A DNA stretch of 64,000 nt from Streptomyces sp. 11x1 (lineage in GTDB: Bacteria; Actinomycetota; Actinomycetes; Streptomycetales; Streptomycetaceae): positions 992,001 to 1,056,000 of the forward strand of contig NZ_CP122458.1 of NCBI RefSeq assembly GCF_032598905.1, in the 5' to 3' direction. Under the pieces are notes generated by a model. That model searched no databases, had not been told where the DNA came from, and was given only the letters and a program-made list of their open reading frames with translations. This document shows, piece after piece, positions 5,124-44,501 of this stretch. Numbering within the stretch: position 1 is the stretch's first letter; each line of letters starts with the position of its first letter. A program made the position numbers and the translations under genes.

Positions 5124-6598
5124 GCGGGACGTATCTCGGGATGCCGGCGTTCCCGAAGGCGGCGCACGAGGCCGTGCGCAACGAGACCCTGCGCGGGAAT
5201 CTGCGCCACGCCACCCACACCATCCGCGCCAAACGCGCCAACGCGGTCGCGGAGGTGTCCGACTGGGCCGCGCTCCGCGAGGCGGGCAAACAGATCAAGG
5301 ACCATACGCTCCGTCATCTCGACCGATATCTCGTGCAGTTGGAGGAGTCGGTCACGGCGGCGGGCGGCACGGTCCACTGGGCCGCCGACGCGGACGAGGC
5401 CAACCGGATCGTCACGTATCTCGTCAAGGCGACCGGCGAGAGCGAGGTCGTCAAGGTCAAGTCGATGGCCACGCAGGAGATCGGGCTGAACGAGGCGCTG
5501 GAGGCCGAGGGCATCCACGCCTACGAGACCGATCTCGCCGAGCTCATCGTGCAGTTGGGCAAGGACCGGCCCTCGCACATCCTGGTCCCTGCGATCCACC
5601 GCAACCGGGGCGAGATCCGGGACATCTTCACGCGCGAGATGAGCGAGTGGGGCCGCCCGGCCCCCGAGGGTCTGTCCGACACGCCCGCCGAGCTGGCGGA
5701 GGCGGCGCGGCTGCATCTGCGGGAGAAGTTCCTGCGGGCCAAGGTCGGTGTCTCCGGCGCCAACTTCATGGTCGCCGAGACGGGCACGCTGGTGGTCGTG
5801 GAGTCCGAGGGCAACGGCCGGATGTGCCTCACCCTCCCCGAGACCCTGATCTCGGTCGTCGGCATCGAGAAGATCGTGCCGACCTGGCAGGACCTGGAGG
5901 TGTTCCTGCAGACCCTGCCCCGCTCCTCCACGGCCGAGCGCATGAACCCGTACACCTCGACCTGGACGGGCACCACCGACGAGGACGGGCCGGGGACCTT
6001 CCACCTCGTGCTCATCGACAACGGCCGCACCGACACGCTCGCCGACGAGGTCGGCCGGCAGGCCCTGCGCTGTATCCGCTGCTCGGCCTGTCTCAACGTC
6101 TGCCCGGTGTACGAGCGGGCGGGCGGCCATGCCTACGGCTCGGTGTACCCGGGCCCGATCGGCGCCATCCTCAGCCCCCAACTCCGGGGCACGGGAAGCG
6201 AGATCGACTCCTCGCTGCCGTACGCCTCGTCGCTGTGCGGCGCCTGCTACGAGGTGTGTCCGGTCGCCATCGACATCCCGGAGGTGCTGGTGCACCTGCG
6301 GGAACGGGTGGCGCAGGGCGGCCCGGTGACGGAAGGCGGCAACAAGGTCGTGCTCAAGCCCGCGAAGGGGCACGCGGCCGAGCGGGCGGCGATGCGCGCG
6401 GCCCGGTGGGCGTTCAGCCACCCCGGCGCGCTGCGCACCGGGCAGCGGCTCGCGTCCCGCACGCGCCGCTTCCACCCCCGTACTCTGCCGGGCGCCGGCA
6501 GGGCCTGGAGCGGCACCCGGGACCTTCCCGCGTTGCCCGCCGAGCCGTTTAGGGACTGGTGGCAGCGGACCAACGGCGGCAAGGAGGACGTGAAATGA
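5120..6598 (+). CDS. lutB: Lactate utilisation protein B, 4Fe-4S protein
   Basis: This 492-residue protein is LutB/YkgF-like. An N-terminal LUD domain (about residues 60-300) is followed by a two-cluster ferredoxin segment with CIRCSACLNVCPVY near residue 317 and CGACYEVCPVAIDIP near residue 373, then a short C-terminal region. It is expected to relay electrons from L-lactate in the LutABC complex at the membrane face. It starts at ATG 5120, inside the end of lutA, and its stop overlaps the lutC start (ATGA at 6595). Size and motif order are normal. Confidence 0.92.
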   Translation: MSGTYLGMPAFPKAAHEAVRNETLRGNLRHATHTIRAKRANAVAEVSDWAALREAGKQIKDHTLRHLDRYLVQLEESVTAAGGTVHWAADADEANRIVTYLVKATGESEVVKVKSMATQEIGLNEALEAEGIHAYETDLAELIVQLGKDRPSHILVPAIHRNRGEIRDIFTREMSEWGRPAPEGLSDTPAELAEAARLHLREKFLRAKVGVSGANFMVAETGTLVVVESEGNGRMCLTLPETLISVVGIEKIVPTWQDLEVFLQTLPRSSTAERMNPYTSTWTGTTDEDGPGTFHLVLIDNGRTDTLADEVGRQALRCIRCSACLNVCPVYERAGGHAYGSVYPGPIGAILSPQLRGTGSEIDSSLPYASSLCGACYEVCPVAIDIPEVLVHLRERVAQGGPVTEGGNKVVLKPAKGHAAERAAMRAARWAFSHPGALRTGQRLASRTRRFHPRTLPGAGRAWSGTRDLPALPAEPFRDWWQRTNGGKEDVK

Positions 6599-39783: not shown

Positions 39784-40172
39784 GGGTCTCCCGGGCCGGG
39801 GATCTGAGGGCGGCGGGCGGTGGGCTCGGCGGCACACCGCCGCGGACGGGGCAAGCACCTCAAGCTACCCATAACGTGCGATCGGATCATATGTCGCAGA
39901 TCACGCGCACCTTTCCTGGACCCGGCCCGGGCCACCCACCCTCCGTCGCAACGAAGACACATCACGGAGCGATAAACACCCTCGCACTGATTGTCACTGC
40001 TTCGAGGTAAGCATCTCGTCCGTCCGGTGGCTGCTGCCGATCCGGGAGCTAGGTTTTTCGCAGGTGAACGGATTCGCCGTGATCCGTCCCGTTCGTTGCC
40101 CGCCCCTCCCTGTCTCCCGGTCGGCGCACCCGTGTGCGCCGGACGACCCGTCGCGCAAGGAGAAAGCCCCCG
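39784..40172 (+). promoter_or_regulatory. Intergenic region with the promoter of the encapsulin operon
   Basis: This 389-base gap separates the divergent VanW and encapsulin genes. It holds an AT-rich patch, CGGATCATATGTCGCAGATC, at about 39881-39900 and another around GGAGCGATAAACACCC near 39965. The encapsulin ribosome site AAGGAG is at 40157-40162. I see no clear -35/-10 pair and no recognisable regulator site, so promoter placement is open. Confidence 0.35.
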
Positions 40173-41588
40173 ATGTCCGTCGACAGCGTCCCGGAAGCTC
40201 GGACCCCACCCGACGCGCCACGGCAGTCCCTGAGCACCGCCGCCGCCCGCAATCTCGCCACCACCACCAAGTCCGCTCCGCAGATGCAGGAGATCACCTC
40301 CCGCTGGTTGCTGCGGATGCTGCCCTGGGTGGAGGCCGCAGGCGGCACCTACCGGGTCAACCGACGGCTGCGCCACACCCTCGGCGACGGGCGCGTCGAG
40401 TTCGTCCAGGAGGGCGCCACGGTCCGGGTGATCCCCCGGGAACTCGGCGAGCTGGCCCTTCTGCGCGGATTCGACGACACGGACGTCCTCACCGCACTCG
40501 CCGACCGCTGCGCACAGCGCGACTTCGCGGCGGGCGAAGTCCTCGCCGAGCGCGGCAGCCCCGCAGACGGGATCCAGCTGATCGCCCACGGCCGGATCAG
40601 CCGGACCTCCGAGGGCAGGTACGGCGAAGAGGTCGCCGTCGAGGTGCTCGCGGACGGCGACCACTTCGGCGAGAAGGCGCTGACGGACTCCGATGTCCGC
40701 CACGACAGCACGTTCACCGCCGAGACCGCGGGCACCCTCCTCACCCTCTCCCGTGCCGACTTCGCCGCCGTCCAGGACTCCGCGCCCCACCTCCGGACCC
40801 ACGTCGACACGTTCGGCTCCCGCGCGCGACGGCGGCAGAACAAGCACGGTGAGGCCGAGATCGCGATGTCGGCCGGTCACGTCGGCGAGGCGGACCTGCC
40901 GGGCACCTTCGTCGACTACGAACTGGAGCCGCGCGAGTACGAACTCTCCGTCGCACAGACGATTTTGCGCATCCACACCCGGGTCGGTGACCTCTACAAC
41001 GGTCCGATGAACCAGAGCGAGGAGCAACTCAGGCTCACTGTCGAGGCACTGAGGGAACGTCAGGAACACGAGCTGATCAACAACCGTGAGTTCGGGCTGC
41101 TCCACAACGCCGACTTCAAGCAGCGCGTCCAGCCCCGCTCCGGCCCGCCGACGCCGGACGACATGGACAACCTGCTCTGCCGACGGCGCGGCACCAAACT
41201 GTTCCTCGCCCACCCCAGGACGATCGCCGCCATCGGGCGCGGCCTGAACGCCTGCGGTCTGCACCCCGACCACGTCGACCTCGGCGGGCAGTCCGTGCCC
41301 GCCTGGCGCGGAGTGCCCATCCTGCCCTGCGGCAAGATCCCGATCAGCAAGGAGCAGACGAGCTCCATCATCGCGATGCGCACGGGTGAGAAGAACCAGG
41401 GCGTCATCGGCCTGCGGCAGACCGGGCTCCCGGACGAGTACGAAGAGGGCCTCTCCGTGCGGTTCATGGGCATCAACGAACAGGCGATCATCTCCTACCT
41501 CGTCAGCACCTACTTCTCCGCCGCGGTGCTGCTGCCCGACGCCCTCGGCGTGCTGGAGAACGTCCAGATCGCGGCCGGGCCGCGCTGA
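40173..41588 (+). CDS. Family 2B encapsulin shell protein with cyclic-nucleotide-binding-like domain
   Basis: This 471-residue protein is a virus-derived (HK97-fold) shell protein of the family 2B encapsulins, which self-assemble into closed protein compartments. The N-arm and first shell part (about 1-85) contain [20 protein letters not shown] and [21 protein letters not shown] cyclic-nucleotide-binding-like domain is inserted (about 88-205: [41 protein letters not shown]). The rest (about 206-471) is the shell fold, with [40 protein letters not shown] and [23 protein letters not shown] 40173 has AAGGAG. It was formerly easy to mistake for a Crp-type regulator, but it has no helix-turn-helix. 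The next two genes identify the cargo. Confidence 0.92.
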
Positions 41589-41760
41589 GTCCGGTTCCAC
41601 GCCGGTCCACGCCCGTCCGCGGTTCTACGCCCACCCCGCCCGCGTCCGGCCGCCGTACGCCCCCATACGCCCGCACGCCCATACGCCCATCACCCGCATG
41701 CCCTCGCGCCCATACGCCCGCAAGTCGGAGCACCCACCCCACCGCAGCAAGGAGCCACCG
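41589..41760 (+). repeat. Gap with three copies of CCCATACGCCC
   Basis: The 172 bases between the encapsulin and synthase genes are unusually C-rich on the + strand. They contain the 11-mer CCCATACGCCC three times (41662-41672, 41678-41688, 41709-41719) and a related CGTACGCCC. The synthase ribosome site AAGGAG is at 41749-41754. The strand bias would leave an unstructured leader RNA. No gene is seen. Confidence 0.6.
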
Positions 41761-43119
41761 ATGCCCGACTCCGGGCCCCTCGGATCATCACCCCCTGAGC
41801 AGCGGCCGTCACCGCCCACAGCTGTGCCGGACGCCCCCGTCCCGGTGGTCACGGACCCTCCGGTCGCACCGACCCCCTCCGGCTTTCTGGCATCACTGCA
41901 CCCGCCGGTCACGCTTCCCTCCCCGCCACCGCCGACGCCAGTGTCTCCGCCCTCCCCGGCTCCGGCGCCCGCCGGCGCCGTACCGGAGGTGCCTGCCACG
42001 ACGGCGGCCGACCCCGGCTCCGCCCTCCGGGCGGTCCTACGGGGGCCGACCGGGCCGGGCACGGCCTCGCTCGCCGTGGCCGGACGGTACGGCCCGCCAC
42101 TCCCGCATCCGCAGCCCCCGGCACCCGCTCCGTCCGCCGAGGGGCGCGCGGTCCCCGGCCTCTACCACCACCCCGTCCCGGAGCCCGATCCCGCACGCGT
42201 CGAGGAGGTGAGCCGCCGGATCAAGCGCTGGGCCGAGGACGAGGTCCAGCTCTATCCCGAGGAGTGGGAGGGGCAGTTCGACGGTTTCTCCGTCGGCCGT
42301 TACATGGTCGGCTGCCACCCGGACGCCCCCACCGTCGACCACCTGATGCTCGCCACGCGGCTGATGGTCGCGGAGAACGCGGTGGACGACTGCTACTGCG
42401 AGGACCACGGCGGGTCGCCCGTCGGTCTCGGCGGGCGCCTCCTCCTCGCGCACACCGCGCTCGACCACTTCCACACCACCGCGGAGTACGCGCCGGCGTG
42501 GCAGGAATCCCTCGCCTCGGACGCCCCACGCCGGGCGTACGACAGCGCGATGGACTACTTCGTCCGCGCTGCCACGCCCTCCCAGGCCGACCGCTACCGG
42601 CACGACATGGCCCGGCTGCACATGGGCTACCTCGCCGAGGCCGCCTGGGCGCAGACCGGTCACGTTCCGGAGGTGTGGGAGTACCTGGCGATGCGCCAGT
42701 TCAACAACTTCCGCCCCTGCCCCACGATCACCGACTCCGTCGGCGGCTACGAACTGCCCGCGGACCTGCACGCCCGGCCGGACATGCAACGGGTCATCGC
42801 CCTGGCCGGCAACGCGACCACCATCGTCAACGACCTCTACTCGTACACCAAGGAACTCGACAGCCCGGGCCATCACCTGAACCTGCCGGTGGTGCTGGCG
42901 GAACGCGAGCGGCTCTCCGAGCGAGACGCCTATCTGAAGGCCGTCGAGGTCCACAACGAACTCCAGCACGCCTTCGAGGCCGCCGCGGCGGAACTCGCGC
43001 AGGCCTGCCCCGTGCCGACCGTGCTGCGTTTCCTCAAAGGCGTGGCCGCCTGGGTCGACGGAAACCACGACTGGCACCGCACCAATACCTACCGCTACAG
43101 CCTGCCCGATTTCTGGTAA
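41761..43119 (+). CDS. 2-Methylisoborneol synthase (encapsulin cargo)
   Basis: This 452-residue class I terpene cyclase converts 2-methylgeranyl diphosphate to the odorant 2-methylisoborneol. The catalytic domain (about 130-452) has the aspartate-rich magnesium motif ENAVDDCYCEDHGG near residue 205, the second metal motif NDLYSYTKE near residue 357 and the end RTNTYRYSLPDFW. The first ~125 residues are Pro/Ala/Ser-rich with almost no predicted fold (SPPEQRPSPPTAVPDAPVPV, PPPPTPVSPPSPAPAPA). In family 2B encapsulin systems such disordered N-termini direct cargo loading. ATG 41761 has AAGGAG. It is placed between the shell gene and the methyltransferase that makes its substrate. Confidence 0.95.
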   Translation: MPDSGPLGSSPPEQRPSPPTAVPDAPVPVVTDPPVAPTPSGFLASLHPPVTLPSPPPPTPVSPPSPAPAPAGAVPEVPATTAADPGSALRAVLRGPTGPGTASLAVAGRYGPPLPHPQPPAPAPSAEGRAVPGLYHHPVPEPDPARVEEVSRRIKRWAEDEVQLYPEEWEGQFDGFSVGRYMVGCHPDAPTVDHLMLATRLMVAENAVDDCYCEDHGGSPVGLGGRLLLAHTALDHFHTTAEYAPAWQESLASDAPRRAYDSAMDYFVRAATPSQADRYRHDMARLHMGYLAEAAWAQTGHVPEVWEYLAMRQFNNFRPCPTITDSVGGYELPADLHARPDMQRVIALAGNATTIVNDLYSYTKELDSPGHHLNLPVVLAERERLSERDAYLKAVEVHNELQHAFEAAAAELAQACPVPTVLRFLKGVAAWVDGNHDWHRTNTYRYSLPDFW

Positions 43120-43133
43120 TGAGAAGAACGGAT

Positions 43134-44042
43134 ATGTCTATGACCACTGAAACGACCTCCACCCCTTCCTCCGCCACCGTCACCACCACGGCCACCGCGA
43201 AGATCCCGGCCCCGGCGACCCCGTACCAGGAGGACATCGCCCGTTACTGGAACAACGAGGCGCGCCCCGTCAACCTCCGACTCGGTGACGTGGACGGCCT
43301 TTACCACCACCACTACGGCATCGGCGCCGTCGACCATGCCGCGCTCGGGGACCCGGCGGACAGCGAGTACGAGAAGAAGCTCATCGCGGAGCTGCACCGA
43401 CTGGAGTCGGCCCAGGCGGAGTTCCTCATGGACCACCTCGGCACCGTCGGCCCCGAAGACACCCTCGTCGACGCCGGCTGCGGGCGCGGCGGGTCCATGG
43501 TCATGGCCCACCGTCGCTTCGGCAGCAAGGTCGAGGGCGTCACGCTGTCGGCCACCCAGGCCGAATTCGGCAACAGGCGCGCGCGGGAACTGCGTATCGA
43601 GGACCACGTCCGCTCCCGCGTGTGCAACATGCTGGACACGCCGTTCGAGAAGGGCAGCATCGCGGCCTCGTGGAACAACGAGTCGACCATGTACGTCGAC
43701 CTCCACGATCTGTTCGCCGAGCACTCCCGCATCCTGAGGCCGGGCGGGCGGTACGTGACCATCACCGGCTGCTGGAACCCCCGTTACGGCCAGCCGTCGA
43801 AGTGGGTCTCGCAGATCAACGCCCACTTCGAGTGCAACATCCACTCCCGCCGTGAGTACCTGCGCGCCATGTCCGACAACCGGCTGGTACCGCACACGAT
43901 CATCGACCTCACCCCGCAGACGCTGCCCTACTGGGAGCTGCGGGCCACGTCCTCCCTGGTCACGGGGATCGAGGAGGCGTTCATCGAGTCCTACCGGGAC
44001 GGCTCCTTCCAATACGTCCTGATCGCCGCCGACCGCGTATGA
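43134..44042 (+). CDS. Geranyl diphosphate 2-C-methyltransferase
   Basis: This ~302-residue SAM-dependent methyltransferase adds a methyl group to C2 of geranyl diphosphate, the first step to 2-methylisoborneol. After a Thr-rich N-terminus (about 1-30) come YWNNEARPVNLRLGDVDGLY and HHHYGIG, the SAM motif LVDAGCGRGGSMVMAHRRFG near residue 112, and a C-terminal aromatic-rich pocket with TMYVDLHDLF and GCWNPRYGQPSKWVSQIN. Starts at 43119, 43134 and 43140 are in frame; 43134 has GAGAAG seven bases upstream. The 43119 ATG overlaps the synthase stop (TAATG). A terminator hairpin follows at once. Confidence 0.94.
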   Translation: MSMTTETTSTPSSATVTTTATAKIPAPATPYQEDIARYWNNEARPVNLRLGDVDGLYHHHYGIGAVDHAALGDPADSEYEKKLIAELHRLESAQAEFLMDHLGTVGPEDTLVDAGCGRGGSMVMAHRRFGSKVEGVTLSATQAEFGNRRARELRIEDHVRSRVCNMLDTPFEKGSIAASWNNESTMYVDLHDLFAEHSRILRPGGRYVTITGCWNPRYGQPSKWVSQINAHFECNIHSRREYLRAMSDNRLVPHTIIDLTPQTLPYWELRATSSLVTGIEEAFIESYRDGSFQYVLIAADRV

Positions 44043-44050
44043 CCCACCCT

Positions 44051-44089
44051 CGCGGGGCCGAACCCGTTTTCCCTACGGACGGCCCCGCG
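44051..44089 (+). terminator. Terminator of the 2-methylisoborneol operon
   Basis: Perfect arms CGCGGGGCCG (44051-44060) and CGGCCCCGCG (44080-44089) flank a 19-base loop that includes TTTTCCC. The hairpin starts 8 bases after the methyltransferase stop. Confidence 0.7.
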
Positions 44090-44501
44090 ATAGTCATCGC
44101 CGCGGCCCCGCCGATGTCGCAGAGCGCGCCACAAGCAGCGCAACAGCCGCAGCACACGGGCCTGACCGCCACCGGCCCCGCGTAGCGCTCCCACGGTCGA
44201 CAACGTCCTGACCCGCAACAACCAGGTCCTGTCCGGGCGATCATGTACGGAACGAGATGATCAGGGCTGCCGCGGAACTGTCACCGCACCGGACCGTGGC
44301 CGTGCTGCGCCTTCCCGCACAGGACGCCTGCAGCGACGCCCGCCGCCGCTACGCCGACGACGTACGTGCTCTCCTTCAGCCCTGGCACGCCCTGGAGGCC
44401 CACCGCCCGCTGGGCTTCAGGATGCGGCCGCGGATCGGTCGGGATCCGCGTGCCAGAATGGAGAAGTCCGTTCTCCGTCCCGGTTTCTTCGAGGTTCCGC
44501 C
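44090..44501 (+). other. Gap between terminator and TetR gene
   Basis: No convincing gene is seen here. A short + frame from ATG 44257 reads MIRAAAELSPHRTVAVLRLP and then QDACSDARRRYADDVRALLQ, with moderate codon bias, before it runs into the TetR gene in another frame. I cannot assign it, and it may be a gene remnant. The right end contains the likely TetR operator at 44460-44476. Confidence 0.3.
44460..44476. promoter_or_regulatory. Candidate TetR operator
   Basis: The sequence GGAGAAGTCCGTTCTCC is an inverted repeat (GGAGAA and TTCTCC, 5-base spacer) centred 34 bases before the GTG start of the TetR gene at 44502. Position and form fit autoregulation. Confidence 0.55.

Follow-up and report, generated by a model that had tools for sequence, protein, structure and literature searches.

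Genes and features of the locus

We analysed a stretch of DNA from Streptomyces sp. 11x1 (the window, 64,000 nucleotides (nt), positions 992,001-1,056,000 on the main contig of a 10.67-Mb genome), in which the genes for an encapsulin shell protein, the synthase of the earthy odorant 2-methylisoborneol (2-MIB) and geranyl diphosphate 2-C-methyltransferase follow one another on the plus strand from 40173 to 44042 (Table 1). This locus is the eshA-mibA-mibB operon, a new copy of a system that is already known. What is new is a set of related strains in which the shell gene has been deleted, while the enzymes, mostly the upstream element, and always the proposed packing tag in the synthase, are retained.

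A sequence-only reading of the window had put these three genes in series on one strand, within limits of 40173-44089, and had assigned them to the Family 2B shell, 2-MIB synthase and methyltransferase families. Order, limits and assignments were all borne out by curated models and solved relatives. The shell protein scored 751.9 bits against the NCBIfam model encap_f2b (NF041163, equivalog), the synthase 499.4 bits against NF041167 (terpene cyclase cargo) and the methyltransferase 484.9 bits against GPPMT_Stmyces (NF041943), each model having a cut-off of 400 bits. All three proteins have solved relatives that match them over their full or almost full length: the top solved match of the shell is the Streptomyces griseus Family 2B encapsulin 9bhu (E 1.6e-242), the synthase matches the solved 2-MIB synthase 3v1x over residues 1-452 (E 1e-250), and the methyltransferase matches 3vc1 (E 6.6e-186). 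The Family 2 HK97-type shell domain was identified at residues 217-467 of the shell protein (PF19307, SrpI-like, E 4.3e-136). The N-terminal tail of the synthase comprises about 130 low-complexity residues and contains GPTGPGT, which lies outside the catalytic domain; DDCYCED and NDLYSYTKE further on are the metal-binding motifs known from its family. The methyltransferase, which converts geranyl diphosphate into 2-methylgeranyl diphosphate, starts 14 nt past the synthase stop, with the ATG at 43140 as a possible alternative.

For comparison, 248 relatives of the synthase were confirmed and the best 80 of these, all titled Streptomyces, were used; loci and genomes are given L and G numbers below. 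These 80 loci comprised 64 with a shell gene directly upstream of the synthase, 13 without one and three at contig edges (L025, L026 and L050). In 64/64 shell-bearing relatives, the shell gene is followed on the same strand by those for synthase and methyltransferase, which excludes chance. The flanking genes are barely conserved (VanW in 3/80 and TetR in 1/80 loci), indicating that the unit consists of these three genes. The nearest relative at the locus among the best 80 was Streptomyces sp. MNU76 (shell 97%, synthase 91% and methyltransferase 98% identical). In a quick tree, the window shell and 63 other shells of the same operon formed one clade (support 98*). This tree and that of the enzymes below were both built quickly, from rows reduced to the columns of the window's proteins, with insertions dropped and stops written as X.

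The sequence-only reading had also proposed ribosome sites of AAGGAG or similar type and a closing hairpin. AAGGAG stands before the shell and synthase genes, and the methyltransferase gene has GAGAAG only; the hairpin is real, as the stretch 44036-44110 folds better than its shuffles (z -3.29). The gap between shell and synthase genes, whose length differs widely between relatives, carries degenerate GC-rich direct repeats of the type CCCATACGCCCGCA at 41662-41735, three copies of which were found by repeat search.

Alignment of 31 upstream regions revealed a conserved element, AAAC-N16-TCAYnGnWTCGAGnTAA, which looks promoter-like in sequence. The pattern was fitted to these same loci. It matches in 58/64 shell-bearing loci (missing in L012, L020, L033, L037, L047 and L054) and in 11/13 shell-less loci (gone in L034 and L041), and these 69 matches are all that occur in 1.01 Mb of the 80 loci on both strands. 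The 64-kb window holds one match. In the 58 shell-bearing loci, the median distance from the end of the element to the shell ATG is 160 nt. A search of the whole genome for the core of the element with up to two mismatches gave a single exact site, which lies at this operon, besides seven with two mismatches. We could not assign the element to BldM: the Group I consensus, as given in the available part of PMC4125116, occurs 9 times in the window, where chance predicts 11.3, and never at the element.

Table 1. Features of the eshA-mibA-mibB locus (window positions)
Feature	Position	Strand	Basis and remarks
Conserved element AAAC-N16-TCAYnGnWTCGAGnTAA	39974-40010	+	Alignment of 31 upstream regions
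AAGGAG, ribosome site of the shell gene	40157-40162	+	Sequence; 10 nt 5' of the shell ATG
Family 2B encapsulin shell gene, eshA type, 471 residues	40173-41588	+	NF041163, PF19307, PF00027, 9bhu
Inserted domain of cyclic-nucleotide-binding fold, shell residues 116-200	40518-40772	+	PF00027, E 4e-14
AAGGAG, ribosome site of the synthase gene	41749-41754	+	Sequence; 6 nt 5' of the synthase ATG
2-MIB synthase gene (mibA), 452 residues	41761-43119	+	3v1x, NF041167
GPTGPGT, synthase residues 95-101, proposed loading motif	42043-42063	+	Sequence
DDCYCED, metal-binding motif of the synthase	42385-42405	+	Sequence
NDLYSYTKE, metal-binding motif of the synthase	42829-42855	+	Sequence
GAGAAG, sole ribosome-site-like string of the methyltransferase gene	43121-43126	+	Sequence
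Geranyl diphosphate 2-C-methyltransferase gene (mibB), 302 residues	43134-44042	+	NF041943, 3vc1
Closing hairpin	44050-44090	+	11-bp perfect outer stem, 44050-44060 with 44080-44090; no T-run

Natural deletions of the shell gene

A locus was called shell-less when no intact shell gene lay within 6 kb upstream of the aligned synthase. With the three contig-edge loci set aside, 77 relatives could be judged, and in 13 of them the shell was absent and the synthase with its motif was kept; as the sample is the best 80 of 248, this rate is valid for close relatives only. The sequence-only reading had remarked that some loci have two shell genes and this one has a single gene. The single gene stands, and that reading could not see that 13/77 relatives have no operon shell at all.

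Clear shell remnants were found at the right place in 6/13 of these loci (L034, L038, L039, L040, L043 and L077); the aligned stretches are 90-721 nt long and 70-90% identical, as against 83-91% between intact shells. Two further loci show how the genes were joined. At L067 (about 5795-6100), the start of the shell gene, with its leader, ribosome site and first codons, continues in frame as synthase, and the junction lies about 8 residues ahead of the motif. At L072 (about 5729-5960), the leader and first codons of the shell are joined to the synthase tail at a point further upstream than in L067. From these junctions, it appears that in both loci the synthase adopted the leader and start codon of the shell once the shell gene had been deleted. 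At L066, the deletion junction lies within the AAGGAG common to both genes. The scars differ from one another in 12 shell-less loci, and L041 shows none. Moreover, on a quick tree of synthase and methyltransferase the shell label requires 7 changes, at least 3 of which are forced by starred branches.

The enzymes have remained intact. Over the aligned part, all 13 shell-less synthases have an open frame with both metal motifs retained, and the methyltransferase is present and open in 12/13 loci (absent in L041). As a yardstick, 61/64 shell-bearing loci passed the same synthase check, one having a stop and two missing the first motif pattern. Among the shell-less synthases, GPxGxGT does not change at any of its fixed positions, while the adjoining linker varies freely. 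Taken together, 13/77 relatives without a shell yet with an open synthase and its motif indicate, on the evidence of their sequences, that the shell is repeatedly dispensable and has been lost by visibly different deletions, with the tag retained. The literature that we searched, which left out most subscription papers and all preprints, held no account of these shell losses.

At L024 (4165-5561), the shell aligns in two frames, which may reflect a frameshift or an assembly error. This locus was scored as shell-bearing and was not entered in the shell tree; if real, the frameshift is one further shell loss.

Proposed packing of the synthase and its alternatives

The reading that we favour, at a probability of about 0.9, is that the shell of this operon loads the synthase through GPTGPGT, that the methyltransferase probably lies outside, and that the shell is accessory to the chemistry. 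We predict that the Family 2B shell protein forms a nanocompartment, into which the co-encoded synthase would be loaded through the motif in its N-terminal tail. With the methyltransferase likely outside the shell, 2-methylgeranyl diphosphate would cross the shell and be cyclised inside. The three genes are likely transcribed as one, from a start near the conserved element at 39974-40010. In the encapsulin study of S. griseus, the synthase is reportedly loaded into the shell, and by analogy packing is expected for the operon in the window. According to the available part of PMC8346489, 2-MIBS-like cyclases are Family 2B cargo and carry, in an N-terminal region that is unannotated and often disordered, the consensus GPTGLGT, which was proposed to serve in targeting. 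Among the loci compared here, GPxGxG[TSA] was found in 64/65 shell-bearing loci (window included), 13/13 shell-less loci and 2/3 contig-edge loci, the motif of L020 being picked in one of two readings of its stretch. The view of the shell as an add-on agrees with partly available reports that eshA is not required for 2-MIB (PMC6428758) and that methyltransferase and synthase suffice in E. coli (PMC10580876).

The sequence-only reading had likewise placed the methyltransferase outside the shell, as it has no long tail of the synthase type. No GPxGxGT-type motif was found in the N-terminal tails of the methyltransferases at 79 loci (0/79), in line with that placement, which stays a probable one. 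The methyltransferase does have a short, variable N-terminal tail of about 30 residues.

Several observations weigh against the favoured reading. The motif survives the loss of the shell and may therefore have a role other than loading. One shell-bearing relative, L014, reads APTGPGT instead, and no GPxGxGT is present in a cyclase with 51% identity to the synthase that stands beside a Family 2B shell (L124/L135, the same locus, genome G082); if this cyclase is loaded at all, it must be by another feature. A scan for sigma-70-like promoters on the plus strand found none, and a terminator scan found no terminator-like site and no T-run at the closing hairpin.

The alternative that best withstands the evidence, though we consider it improbable, is that GPxGxGT serves the synthase itself, in stability, solubility or catalysis, and that the shell packs the enzyme via another part or not at all. 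Such a role would suit the retention of the motif in 13/13 shell-less synthases, among them L067, where the tail has been shortened to about 8 residues before a motif that is still kept, and the cyclase of L124/L135 that lacks it beside a shell. However, the same motif occurs in distant cyclases beside other shells (e.g. L106/L174 and L118/L167), and it lies outside the catalytic domain. Moreover, G065 was the only one of 150 genomes with a synthase-type cyclase and no shell found, and its cyclase (35% identical) lacks the motif; this is a single weak case, in a genome 82% complete. In the wider phylum, such a cyclase was found in 7/396 genomes, and in the two cyclase genomes outside the genus a shell lies on the same contig, at least 2.4 kb from the cyclase (two shells in G393, one in G255).

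Loading through the motif could outlast the operon shell if that shell were exchangeable. We tentatively propose, as a possibility well short of even odds, that in Streptomyces strains which deleted it the synthase is taken up in trans by another resident Family 2B shell, chiefly one of the two-component xylulokinase type. If so, the loading motif would be expected to survive every shell deletion seen, including the one that trimmed the tail almost to the motif, and its presence in distant cyclases beside other shells suggests that shells may share a docking site. Against this, the shell losses may be too recent for the motif to have decayed, its codons show few changes between sister strains, and the cyclase of L124/L135 lacks it beside a shell. 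The native cargo of the two-component xylulokinase-type shells has not been determined, according to the available part of PMC12407261. The shell search by genome covered 15 genomes, three of them with contig-edge loci and the others 12 of the 13 shell-less genomes (L034 was left out), and another Family 2B shell was found in 12/12 of the latter. We dropped this count as support, because 147/150 Streptomyces genomes carry some Family 2B shell and 12/12 thus carries no weight alone.

A tandem shell pair was found in 10/12 shell-less genomes versus 2/64 shell-bearing genomes, the latter run as two sets (2/35 and 0/29). G010 was counted as a pair though one of its shells is broken between frames; L044 (two shell fragments on different contigs) and L042 and L082 (two shells 3-5 kb apart on opposite strands) were not counted. 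On the tree, this excess amounts to 6 independent contrasts on all branches and 2 on starred branches; with the latter number, no test can reach significance, and kinship can explain the excess. A xylulokinase-like gene stands beside the pair in 8/10 genomes, as identified by family models in L172, L173 and L182 and by eye in the rest. The 12 shell-less genomes hold 34 above-cut-off shells, none of which falls within the operon-shell clade; the nearest, L186, is its sister.

At L186:6774-10497, this shell lies directly upstream of a terpene cyclase of 755 residues. L183:6446-10209 has the same arrangement, a Family 2B shell followed directly by a terpene cyclase with two domains and about 750 residues, which scored 1234 bits against f2_encap_cargo3 (cut-off 1200). 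The two-domain cyclases of L183 and L186 are probably geosmin-synthase-like.

The sequence-only reading spoke of only one shell gene, which is right for the locus and wrong for the genome. A second complete Family 2B shell, EshB-like, lies 2.5 Mb away (C1:3499992-3501341; 771.8 bits); it is 63% identical to the operon shell and belongs to another clade. It adjoins a polyprenyl transferase that scored 492.4 bits as an NCBIfam Family 2 cargo (cut-off 450), and the two stand at L086:5772-8423 (minus strand). We regard it as quite unlikely that the two shells co-assemble into a mixed compartment. Both are full-length Family 2B proteins of one genome, and mixed shells have been published for a Streptomyces lydicus tandem pair (PMC12407261, as far as available); against this, the second shell is far off, of another clade and beside a cargo of its own, and with a Family 2B shell in nearly every Streptomyces genome, co-occurrence says little.

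A relic of a third shell was found at 9.907 Mb (C1:9906838-9907818; L087:5836-6819, minus strand). Its single open frame of 327 residues begins as a Family 2B shell (N-terminal part, positions 20-213 of the 450 in the model, up to the domain of cyclic-nucleotide-binding fold) and goes on as a terpene cyclase (C-terminal part, positions 237-364 of 366). The relic likely arose by in-frame deletion, because three relatives (G016, G022 and G026) hold its two parts in separate open frames about 1.38 kb apart. An open reading frame that by eye reads like a tyrosine recombinase adjoins it (L087:7571-8650).

The older view of EshA as a regulator that responds to cyclic nucleotides, with a synthase that never enters a shell, was rejected as the leading interpretation and seems to us very improbable. 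It could appeal to the inserted domain, which keeps FGE and an arginine aligned with human PKG. Two thirds of the protein, however, is shell family domain, its top structure match is a solved shell, and the pocket residues differ within the operon-shell clade (ten commonest strings of 64 rows). The inserted domain, moreover, binds no cyclic nucleotide according to the available part of PMC12407261.

The natural shell deletions are ready-made tests of the purpose of the shell, of the use of the tag with other shells, and of what fills the two-component xylulokinase-type shells.

Comparison with known systems

The closest system is the 2-MIB encapsulin operon of S. griseus (EshA/SgEnc; PDB 9bhu, 9bhv and 9bi0), which has the same three genes in the same order and on one strand (NCTC13033, L056). 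The window shell, synthase and methyltransferase are 77%, 76% and 81% identical to their counterparts there. There, the gap between shell and synthase genes has another length and sequence, as has the synthase tail; no difference in kind was found.

Two other structures among the matches, 9bix and 9bje, are presumably those of two-component Family 2B encapsulins. The two-component encapsulins of S. lydicus, as described in the available part of PMC12407261, have in common with the window shell the shell fold with an inserted domain. Two-component systems have two shell genes in one operon, whereas the window locus has one. At the diagnostic motifs, the window shell reads RRRG at motif 1, which is Enc2-like, while its motif 2 is closer to Enc1.

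The eshA-mibA-mibB locus of Streptomyces venezuelae likewise carries the same three genes in one operon, and the portions available of the respective reports describe it as bound and activated by BldC (PMC6428758) and regulated by BldM (PMC8549240). Further afield, the cyanobacterial cluster cnbA-mtf-mtc-cnbB places the same two enzymes beside capsid-like cyclic-nucleotide-binding proteins, again by the available part of the account (PMC10580876). It differs from the window operon in having two flanking shell-like genes that are transcribed apart from mtf-mtc, and in the reversed order of its two enzymes.

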